A DNA stretch of 34,495 nt. It comes from a bacterium. GTDB taxonomy: Bacteria; Vulcanimicrobiota; Xenobia; Xenobiales; JADMJV01. The translations under genes were made by a program, and so were the position numbers. Positions 31,018 to 34,495 of this stretch are shown here, piece after piece. The stretch is from the NCBI GenBank assembly GCA_030149525.1, contig JASBRJ010000395.1, forward strand, positions 1 through 34,495. The letters are read 5' to 3'. The notes under the pieces are model-generated. The model worked only from the letters and a program-made list of their open reading frames with translations. It was not told the DNA's origin and did not search any database. Positions within the stretch are counted from its first letter, which is position 1. The number at the start of each line of letters is the position of its first letter.

Positions 31018-31071
31018 GTCAAGCGGTTCAAGGGCCTGTTTAGCCGGCTCGTTCTGGTGGAATCAGACCCT

Positions 31072-31770
31072 ATGAGATTTCCAACGATTTTAGCTTTTGG
31101 CCTGGCTCTGACAGTCGGGCTGAGTTGCGCTCTGGCCGAGCAAGCGGGTGAGCACCAACACGGTGGTCATAAGCATCACGGGAAACACCACGGTTTCGGC
31201 GACACGGAAAAGTATATCCAACGGTTTGAGGAGCCTGCTCGCGCAGAGTGGCAGAAACCCGATCTTGTGGTGGAGATGCTCCAACTGAAGCCCGGCATGA
31301 ATGTTGCCGATATCGGAGCCGCCACCGGTTACTTCGCCCGTCGCATGGCGAAGAAGGTTATGCCCGGGGGTTATGTGGCCGCCGTTGATCTGGAGGAAGG
31401 CTTCGTACCGTACCTCCGCCGACGGGCCTACCAGGAGGGCGTGTTTAACGTGTTCCCGGTGAAGGGCCTTCCCGACGACCCGCTGCTGCCTGCCGAGAGT
31501 ATCGACCTCATCCTTATCGTGGACACTCTTCATCATATCGATGAACGCGAAGCTTACTATGAGAAGCTCAAGTCGGCCCTGCGTGAGTCGGGTCGTGTGG
31601 TGGTGGTAGATTTCTACAAGGAGAAAGAGATTCCGGTCGGTCCAGGCCCGGAGATGCGTCTGCGGGCAACAGATCTTAAAAAGGAATTTGAGGCCGCCGG
31701 TTTCGTGGTCGAAATCGATAGCGCCACTTTGCCCTACCAGTACATCTTGACGGCGACCAAAAAGTCGTAG
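31072..31770 (+). CDS. Exported SAM-dependent methyltransferase-like protein with His-rich leader
   Basis: From ATG 31072 the protein has a signal peptide (hydrophobic 4-20, cleavage probably near ALA at 20-22), then a His-rich stretch (28-40, about nine His) that could bind Zn, Cu or Ni, then a class I methyltransferase domain (about 60-230). SAM motif I is VADIGAATGYFA (78-89) and the acidic residue after beta-2 is Asp106 in AAVDLEE; LILIVDTLHHI is motif IV-like. SAM is not known to be available in the periplasm, so catalysis there is puzzling. A family of exported proteins with this His-rich plus methyltransferase plan seems to occur in diverse bacteria. A GTG at 31057 would add five residues. 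A strong terminator follows the gene. Confidence 0.83.
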   Translation: MRFPTILAFGLALTVGLSCALAEQAGEHQHGGHKHHGKHHGFGDTEKYIQRFEEPARAEWQKPDLVVEMLQLKPGMNVADIGAATGYFARRMAKKVMPGGYVAAVDLEEGFVPYLRRRAYQEGVFNVFPVKGLPDDPLLPAESIDLILIVDTLHHIDEREAYYEKLKSALRESGRVVVVDFYKEKEIPVGPGPEMRLRATDLKKEFEAAGFVVEIDSATLPYQYILTATKKS

Positions 31771-32299: not shown

Positions 32300-33406
32300 G
32301 TGTCGGTGCGTTTATTGCATACCTCAGATTGGCATTTGGGACGTCGATTTTTTGGCCGTTCTCTTCTCAGTGACCAGGAGTATGTTTTGGACCAGATGCT
32401 CAATCTGGTCCGAGATCTGAACCCGGACACTCTGGTTGTGACCGGCGACATTTTCGATCAACGCCGTCCCGATGAGGAGGCCCTGGCTCTCTTTCACGAC
32501 ACTCTCAATCGTTTACTCGAGCTCGGTACTGTCGTCATTTTCTTGGCCGGGCCGTCGGATGATTTTCGTCACCTTCACCTTGGGGCCCGCTGGGTTCGCG
32601 ATGCCGGTGTTTATCTCTTCGAAGACGCCACCCAGGTGCTTTCGCCGTTGAGTCTCAGGGGAGCCCGGGACAGTTTTGATGTCAACACCTGGTGCCTTCC
32701 TTTTCCCAAGACGACGGAGTTGAGCCGACCGGACGAGCATCCGGCTCTTTTTTCCCATTCTCTGGTAGAGAAAGTCGTCCAGCGGCTCAATCCTAATGAG
32801 GTCAACATCTTTTTGGGCTACGCGTGGGCTCAGGACGCCGGTCGGCCGGAGGAGCTGGGCGCGTTGGTCAAGCCCGGTGGGCAACCCTTGGAAAAGCGGT
32901 TGTTAGATTTCTTCGATGTCTCGGCTTTGGGAGGAAGACACTCGCCACATTCTTTGGGGTCTCAGGCTTTCTATTGCGGCAGTCTTCTCTGCTATGAGGC
33001 GGAGTCGGAAAGCCCGGGCCGCTCTGTCACCTTCTACGACATTCTCAGTAAAGGTGAGGTGATGGTCGACCACTACCCTCTCCGACCTCGCCGCTCTCTG
33101 AAAGTTCTGACCGGCAGTTGGGAAGAGCTTATGGAGAAGGGGCGGGAACTTCGCTCCGACGACTTGATCGTTCTCCGCTCTGATGAATTCGACCTCACTC
33201 CCGAACAGCGAGCCGATCTGAGAGTTCTTGGGCCCAACATCGTGTCGTTGGAGATGCCGGCCTTGGAAGGGCCCCAAGAAGAGGAGAGGGATGAATCCGT
33301 CCCACTTTTGGTCAAGCTTTTTCAGAAGTTTGCCCTGGAGTCGGCGGGTAAAGAGCTCTCTCCTGAATGTCTTGAACTCTTGCTCGAGTTGGAAGAGAAA
33401 CTATGA
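32300..33406 (+). CDS. SbcD-like nuclease subunit with degenerate active site
   Basis: The start RLLHTSDWHLGR and TLVVTGDIFDQRRP clearly place this in the SbcD/Mre11 calcineurin-like phosphoesterase family, and it precedes SbcC. Retained metal ligands are Asp10, His12 and Asp50. Others are lost: the family GNHDS motif reads GPSDD (84-88), so the bridging Asn and catalytic His are Pro85 and Ser86; the AH-type His near 174 is Gly/Tyr (FLGYAWAQ); and GHIH reads GGRH (211-214), keeping only the last His. The capping and C-terminal regions (about 240-368) are shorter than in E. coli SbcD (400). GTG is the start; its stop overlaps the sbcC ATG by four bases. I infer a SbcC-binding protein with reduced or no nuclease activity. 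Confidence 0.88.
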   Translation: MSVRLLHTSDWHLGRRFFGRSLLSDQEYVLDQMLNLVRDLNPDTLVVTGDIFDQRRPDEEALALFHDTLNRLLELGTVVIFLAGPSDDFRHLHLGARWVRDAGVYLFEDATQVLSPLSLRGARDSFDVNTWCLPFPKTTELSRPDEHPALFSHSLVEKVVQRLNPNEVNIFLGYAWAQDAGRPEELGALVKPGGQPLEKRLLDFFDVSALGGRHSPHSLGSQAFYCGSLLCYEAESESPGRSVTFYDILSKGEVMVDHYPLRPRRSLKVLTGSWEELMEKGRELRSDDLIVLRSDEFDLTPEQRADLRVLGPNIVSLEMPALEGPQEEERDESVPLLVKLFQKFALESAGKELSPECLELLLELEEKL

Positions 33407-34495
33407 AGCTTTTGCGCCTGAAATTGGAGGCGTTTGGGCCCTACGGCGGTTCGGAAATTATCGACTTTCGAGCCTTGCGATACAGCAAGCTTTTTCTCAT
33501 CCACGGTCCGGTAGGGAGTGGGAAGACATTTCTATTGGACGGGATCTGCTTTGCTCTTTACGGCCGATCGTCGGGTGGGGAGAGAAGTCGGAAGGGTCTT
33601 CGCAACCTAACGGCCGCCGACAGCCAGGACACCATCGCTTGTCTGGATTTCCAATCAGGCTCCAATAGCTATCGTGTGGAGCGGAGATTCAACTCGCAAA
33701 GCGATGAGGTGGTCCTCTATCGGTTGCCCGAAATCGGTGAACCCGGTCGACGCGATATCCTGAGTGCCACGGAAGGGGGAGTTTCCTCTATGATCGTGCG
33801 GCTCTTGGGGTTGACAGCCGAACAGTTCTGTCAGGTCGCCATCTTGCCCCAAGGCCGTTTCCGACGTTTTCTACTGGCTGCCGGGGACGAGCGTCGCCAC
33901 ATCCTCTCCAACATGTTCAAGGCCGAGCGCCATCGAAGACTTCAAGAAGCCATTTCCAACGGGGCTCAAAGTGCCAACAACTCCCTGAAAGAGGCCTGGG
34001 GAAGACGGGAGTCGCTGATCGGAGGCTACCAGGCCGACGGAGGGGACCCCCACACCAGTCTCCATCGATCGCTTGAGGAATTGGAGGCTGTTCAAGAAGC
34101 TTGCAAGAGCCATCAGGAGCGGAGCATTGAGTGGGAAAAATCTCTGGAAGAGGCTGTTCGCTACGAGGTGCTCGACCGTCAGAGAGATGTGTCGCAACGA
34201 GAGCTTCAGGCTCTCAATGGGGAGGTGGAAACAACGGAGGAAGCTCTCAACGACCAGCTTCGCCGCAGTCTGCCTGACTACGAGAAGTGGCGGTCACTTC
34301 GTGAGGAGTCGGAGGAGATCGAAGAGGAGCTTCAGAGCCAGAGAGCCCAGTATGAGAAGCTGCGAACCGATACGAATTTTCTGGAGGCCGAGGTGGAGAG
34401 AGCTCGCCTTCTAGAGGAGGAGCGATTCACCTTAAGATCGGCACAGGAACGACTTCGAATGCTCTACGACGACACGCGCGGCCTGGACCTTCTAT
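33403..34495 (+). CDS. sbcC: SbcC/Rad50-like ATPase, N-terminal part (runs off the window)
   Basis: SbcC is the SMC-like ATPase that, with SbcD, binds and processes DNA ends and hairpins. The 364 visible residues have the expected start LKLEAFGPYGGSEIIDF, Walker A GPVGSGKT (35-42), LLDGICFALYG and the Q-loop region QVAILPQGRFRRFLLA (144-159). From about 190 the sequence becomes a charged coiled coil rich in Glu, Arg and Leu. There is no stop before the end at 34495, so the zinc-hook and C-terminal ATPase lobe lie outside. Unlike its partner SbcD-like protein, the motor motifs seen here are intact. The ATGA overlap (33403-33406) implies tight co-translation. Confidence 0.93.
   Translation, partial: MKLLRLKLEAFGPYGGSEIIDFRALRYSKLFLIHGPVGSGKTFLLDGICFALYGRSSGGERSRKGLRNLTAADSQDTIACLDFQSGSNSYRVERRFNSQSDEVVLYRLPEIGEPGRRDILSATEGGVSSMIVRLLGLTAEQFCQVAILPQGRFRRFLLAAGDERRHILSNMFKAERHRRLQEAISNGAQSANNSLKEAWGRRESLIGGYQADGGDPHTSLHRSLEELEAVQEACKSHQERSIEWEKSLEEAVRYEVLDRQRDVSQRELQALNGEVETTEEALNDQLRRSLPDYEKWRSLREESEEIEEELQSQRAQYEKLRTDTNFLEAEVERARLLEEERFTLRSAQERLRMLYDDTRGLDLL

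Follow-up and report, generated by a model that had tools for sequence, protein, structure and literature searches.

The sbcD-sbcC Locus

The window, that is, the whole stretch of 34,495 nucleotides that was analysed, derives from a bacterium of the order Xenobiales and ends with a homologue of sbcD followed by the first part of sbcC. The genes and their junction are as follows.

32300..33406, forward strand: sbcD homologue of 368 amino acids with the metal-2 site lost (TIGR00619, alignment, AlphaFold2 model and solved-structure match)
33403..33406, forward strand: ATGA, in which the stop of sbcD and the start of sbcC overlap (sequence)
33403..34495, forward strand: sbcC, N-terminal 364 amino acids with the Walker A motif GPVGSGKT, cut by the contig end (TIGR00618, 142 bits)

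The protein encoded at 32300-33406 matches the NCBIfam model TIGR00619 with 98.2 bits (cut-off 77.65), which places it by sequence among the SbcD/Mre11 proteins, and it also has a Pfam Metallophos match. A GTG at 32306 is the more likely start of the gene, giving a protein of 366 amino acids that begins MRLLHTSDWHLG, as in the relatives. The coupling of sbcD to sbcC by ATGA, which had been described in a sequence-only reading of this DNA, is indeed present. Elsewhere in the window, a methyltransferase-like gene (31057-31770) encodes a protein whose signal-like N-terminus is followed by a His-rich stretch (HQHGGHKHHGKHHG).

SbcC had been called intact in the same reading. This cannot be read from the window, whose contig stops 364 amino acids into the protein, but the motifs are present if the gene continues on contig C359 of the same genome. 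C359 contains an open frame of 604 amino acids which runs off the contig end and carries the hook CPLCG, LSGGE, and DEGF, and this frame is the only match in the window genome to the SbcC C-terminus. We infer the join, because no overlapping sequence exists between the end of the window contig and that of C359. Together, the two parts amount to about 968 amino acids, and the SbcC of the relatives has 972. In the five relatives whose SbcC is readable, Walker A, the zinc hook, the signature, and Walker B are all kept, and in a further one (G005) the gene is interrupted by a run of Ns. The composition is that of an SbcCD operon, with a Rad50-like SbcC bearing Walker A, hook, signature, and Walker B, the second half being supplied in the window genome by the putative continuation on C359.

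Active-Site Residues

The window SbcD was compared with an E. coli SbcD sequence that agrees at the motifs with the E. coli chain against which it was checked. In the alignment, Asp10, His12, Asp50, Asp87, and His214 are unchanged, whereas Asn83, His84, His184, and His222 of E. coli SbcD are replaced by Pro85, Ser86, Tyr174, and Gly212, respectively. The corresponding codons are located as follows.

32327..32335, forward strand: Asp10 and His12, metal-1 ligands, kept (invariant in all aligned rows)
32447..32449, forward strand: Asp50, bridging both metals, kept (invariant in all aligned rows)
32552..32557, forward strand: Pro85-Ser86 in place of the Asn-His of GNHD, so that the metal-2 Asn and the catalytic His are lost (alignment)
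32819..32821, forward strand: the mid-domain His, a metal-2 ligand, lost and replaced by Tyr174 (alignment)
32933..32935, forward strand: the first His of GHIH, a metal-2 ligand, lost and replaced by Gly212 (alignment)
32939..32941, forward strand: His214, the last His of GHIH and a metal-1 ligand, kept (invariant in all aligned rows)

The four changes that had been proposed at the Asn and His of GNHD, the mid-domain His, and the first His of GHIH are thus borne out (N85P, H86S, H174Y, and H212G), as is the retention of Asp10, His12, and Asp50. According to what is reported of the Mre11 structures (Hopfner, 2001), the ligands that remain make up metal site 1 in full, whereas those that have been replaced are the three that serve metal 2 only. 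It is therefore one site that is lost, and not most of the ligands. In this regard, the description of a protein "missing most metal ligands" was inaccurate and overstated: four of the seven metal ligands of SbcD/Mre11 are kept, including His214, which had not been listed, and only the three metal-2-only ligands are replaced.

Conservation and Phylogeny

Orthologues of full length are found in six further species, five from the sister genus (G001-G005) and one from the sister family (G006), and the metal-2 loss is common to all seven species. The motifs read GQQD or GQHD, GY, and GYLH in the sister genus and GFQD, AH, and GYFH in the sister family. The metal-1 ligands and Asp87 are invariant in all seven, whereas the metal-2 positions drift. 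The catalytic His is Ser in the window and Gln in four species (five of the seven together), while two sister-genus species keep it; this position differs even between sister-genus species that are about 90% identical. Position 174 is Tyr in six members, G006 keeping His, and position 212 is Gly in the window and Tyr in the other six.

The alignment comprises 117 rows, of which seven belong to the clade; the 110 others correspond to about 102 distinct cellular SbcD genes, since eight were fetched twice, and include paralogues from the same genomes. All nine active-site residues are canonical in every one of these 110 rows, and chance is excluded because of this and of the same loss in six other species. 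The order also contains canonical SbcD members (G014), as does the phylum (G033). The same degeneracy was not found elsewhere in 149 genomes of the phylum (matches with E 1e-20 or better) and, among the matches listed, in 80 SbcD loci from other bacteria. A sequencing or assembly error was also considered and is ruled out by the occurrence of the same loss in seven species with separate assemblies. Close relatives with canonical motifs, which would have spoken against the original proposal, were not what was found, the orthologues in the sister genus and sister family being degenerate. No earlier report of this SbcD variant was found in the literature searched, the coverage of which was incomplete.

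Viral contigs gave 65 SbcD matches, 63 of them readable. The His of GNHD and the mid-domain His are lost in none of these 63, and in 12 just one metal-2 ligand is changed (to Ser, Asp, Ala, or Gly). The latter (L208, L212, L215, L222, L216, L204, L218, L219, L221, L229, L236, and L242) show GDIH, GGIH, or Ser or Ala in place of Asn, the other ligands and the catalytic His being kept.

The degenerate set forms one clade both in the SbcD tree (SH-aLRT 92) and in the SbcC tree (88). In a joined SbcD and SbcC tree built without columns 85, 86, 174, and 212, support for the clade drops to 72/84, and the branches are long. A single origin of the metal-2 loss is favoured by these trees, although not proven.

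Selection and Predicted Fold

In the sister genus, the dN/dS of the degenerate sbcD is 0.035-0.11, with synonymous sites near saturation, and that of the canonical paralogue is 0.033-0.20. The degenerate gene is under purifying selection, as measured in this genus. A pseudogene is ruled out by these ratios and by the intact frames. The sequence-only reading had proposed a distinct class of SbcCD if the variant were conserved; it is indeed conserved in two sister genera and a sister family, with purifying selection in the sister genus and with SbcC intact. Divergence is unevenly distributed along the protein. Conservation of the N-lobe is nearly that of canonical proteins (44% among clade members versus 51%), whereas the nuclease C-lobe, in which two of the lost ligands lie, is the most diverged part (21% versus 43%).

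The AlphaFold2 model of the window SbcD has a pLDDT of 85.5 and a pTM of 0.80. Its best solved-structure match is S. aureus SbcD 7dog (TM 0.87, target-normalised), followed by E. coli SbcCD structures. The model contains a calcineurin-like nuclease domain and a capping domain, its best solved matches being SbcD and Mre11, and the SbcD fold is predicted to be kept in full. Two further features were placed on the gene from this model.

33098..33253, forward strand: capping domain, about residues 267-318 (model secondary structure and confidence)
33305..33400, forward strand: predicted C-terminal helix pair, putative SbcC-binding part of SbcD (helices predicted at 336-349 and 355-367, SbcD being modelled alone)

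Other Nucleases and Neighbouring Genes

A canonical second SbcCD is present in all six related genomes. In the window genome, a 97%-complete draft in 398 contigs, no canonical second SbcCD was found with TIGR00619 and the paralogue alignment, and the same search gave only the window sbcD and one YhaO-like gene. AddAB-like frames are present in this genome at C310. Besides the second SbcCD of the relatives, cutting capacity is left to these frames and to a YhaO/YhaN-like pair with a canonical active site. Two sister-genus species have yet another SbcD gene, their third, in which all nine positions are canonical (L157, G002:C119; L158, G003:C61).

A replacement nuclease was sought beside the operon, and none is common to all three lineages. 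In all five sister-genus species, a gene for a HipA-family kinase lies directly upstream of the degenerate sbcDC (L043:10654-12015; L042, L044, L046, and L047). In G001, 11 bases separate its end from sbcD; the window and G006 are without this neighbour. Neither the HipA-like protein nor SbcD matches a defence model, and SbcC matches generic ATPase models only. In G006, sbcD is closely preceded on its own strand by a frame of 813 residues with PLD-like domains (L041:2963-5404), whose protein weakly resembles DrmC-type defence proteins.

A Probable Non-Cutting Complex

The window protein is a descendant of SbcD by sequence and predicted fold. It is probably a pseudo-nuclease variant and is not filed here as an SbcD exonuclease, because it departs from two traits by which SbcD is defined as a nuclease: of the seven metal ligands, three are replaced, and so is the catalytic His of GNHD. 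The His of GNHD is held to be essential for catalysis (PMC4996933). It has been reported that E. coli SbcCD-H84Q is nuclease-deficient with an ATPase only about 15% lower (PMC6265447) and that P. furiosus Mre11-H85S is nuclease-inactive (PMC8007570). Since Ser or Gln at this position is dead in the laboratory mutants and the metal-2 ligands are lost as well, the most likely outcome is a complex that can bind and bridge ends but does not cut them. The lineage is probably, judging from its sequences, a conserved nuclease-dead SbcCD serving as an ATP-driven DNA-end clamp or tether. The chances appear about even that it constitutes a conserved bacterial class of SbcCD without any DNA cutting, acting as an end clamp or tether and being the sole SbcCD of one genome.

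In the mechanism proposed, metal site 1 (Asp10, His12, Asp50, and His214) probably holds one metal ion with a structural role or a role in binding the DNA backbone, whereas the absence of site 2 and, in most species, of the catalytic His would block two-metal hydrolysis. SbcD is predicted to retain the N-lobe through which it dimerises, the capping domain, and the pair of C-terminal helices, and would still be seated on SbcC. The ATPase motifs and zinc hook of SbcC would allow ATP-dependent binding, clamping, and bridging of DNA ends with no cutting. End processing may be left to other enzymes: in the related genomes to their canonical second SbcCD, and in the window genome to an AddAB-like pair. 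What we infer for the complex as a whole is that it has lost nuclease activity, holds a single metal, and clamps and tethers ends. The earlier suggestion that it tethers or senses ends without cutting is therefore the best-supported reading, from the sequence and the published mutants, with the activity itself deduced from these. In yeast, some functions are said not to need the Mre11 nuclease (Moreau, 1999, as cited in PMC11661359).

Some observations speak against full inactivity. The catalytic His is still present in two sister-genus species, and the mid-domain His in G006. Moreover, the viral SbcDs with a single metal-2 change and all else kept indicate that one change alone need not abolish activity. 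The protein might still be a phosphoesterase, with one metal or with a second site rebuilt from Gln and Tyr, perhaps slow or directed to another substrate. Gln and Tyr can in principle serve as metal ligands, and a Tyr ligand is used by other phosphoesterases; in the sister genus, the metal-2 positions are uniformly Gln/Tyr/Tyr, and the metal-1 ligands and Asp87 do not vary in the clade. This is nevertheless unlikely, given that no replacement set is common to the clade, the residues being Pro/Tyr/Gly in the window and Phe/His/Tyr in G006, and that the catalytic His drifts between close species. Gene decay, with sbcD redundant beside the second SbcCD of the related genomes, would fit the long window branch. 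It is already disfavoured and scarcely credible in view of the low dN/dS, the intact frames in seven species, the preserved operon, SbcC motifs, and metal-1 ligands, and a window genome without a second SbcCD of that type.

Other explanations assign the complex a partner. It may sense or hold ends while a separate nuclease cuts in trans, for which the canonical second SbcCD in six genomes, the AddAB-like frames of the window genome, and the PLD-like gene of G006 could provide candidates. The earlier idea that another nuclease is used is possible in this form, but no nuclease gene lies consistently beside the operon and the partner is only hypothetical, which makes this explanation quite improbable. 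A shift to defence or stress signalling, for example, with the HipA-like kinase, is suggested by the position of that gene in all five sister-genus species. It is very improbable, as the window and G006 have no such gene beside sbcD and defence models match neither the HipA-like protein nor SbcD.

The non-cutting end clamp, if confirmed, would bear on a question that has mostly been studied with engineered mutants of SbcCD and Mre11-Rad50, that is, the separation of cutting from end binding and tethering. A natural lineage in which selection did away with one metal site and the catalytic His, yet preserved the ATPase and the rest of the fold, would indicate independently that the non-cutting role alone can be worth keeping. 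It would also supply ready-made proteins with which end recognition could be studied structurally while the DNA is not degraded.

Comparison with Known Systems

Canonical SbcCD (E. coli SbcD 6s6v, 6s85, and 7yzo; S. aureus 7dog) shares with the present complex the predicted fold, the operon order, the ATGA overlap, the SbcC motifs, and the metal-1 ligands. It differs from the clade, in which all metal-2-only ligands are replaced (except the mid-domain His kept by G006) and five of seven members carry Ser or Gln instead of the catalytic His. A YhaO/YhaN-like pair (G000:C278, L049, in the window genome) also places an Mre11-like phosphoesterase beside a large Rad50-like ATPase. However, its nine active-site residues are canonical, its ATPase has neither a CxxC hook nor LSGGE and DEGF, and it is distant by sequence.

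Calcineurin-like phosphoesterase domains that are regarded as having lost catalysis are found in the B-subunits of eukaryotic DNA polymerases, which are kept as structural subunits. A relation of these B-subunits to archaeal DP1 and to Mre11 has been described (PMC4996933). They belong to another complex and have another role, whereas the window SbcD has a complete metal-1 site and an SbcC partner. A further parallel is given by the nuclease-dead laboratory mutants SbcD H84Q and Mre11 H85S, in which the same residue carries the same replacements (Gln and Ser) as in the clade. Unlike in these mutants, the change in the clade is natural and conserved, and it is accompanied by the loss of the metal-2 ligands.
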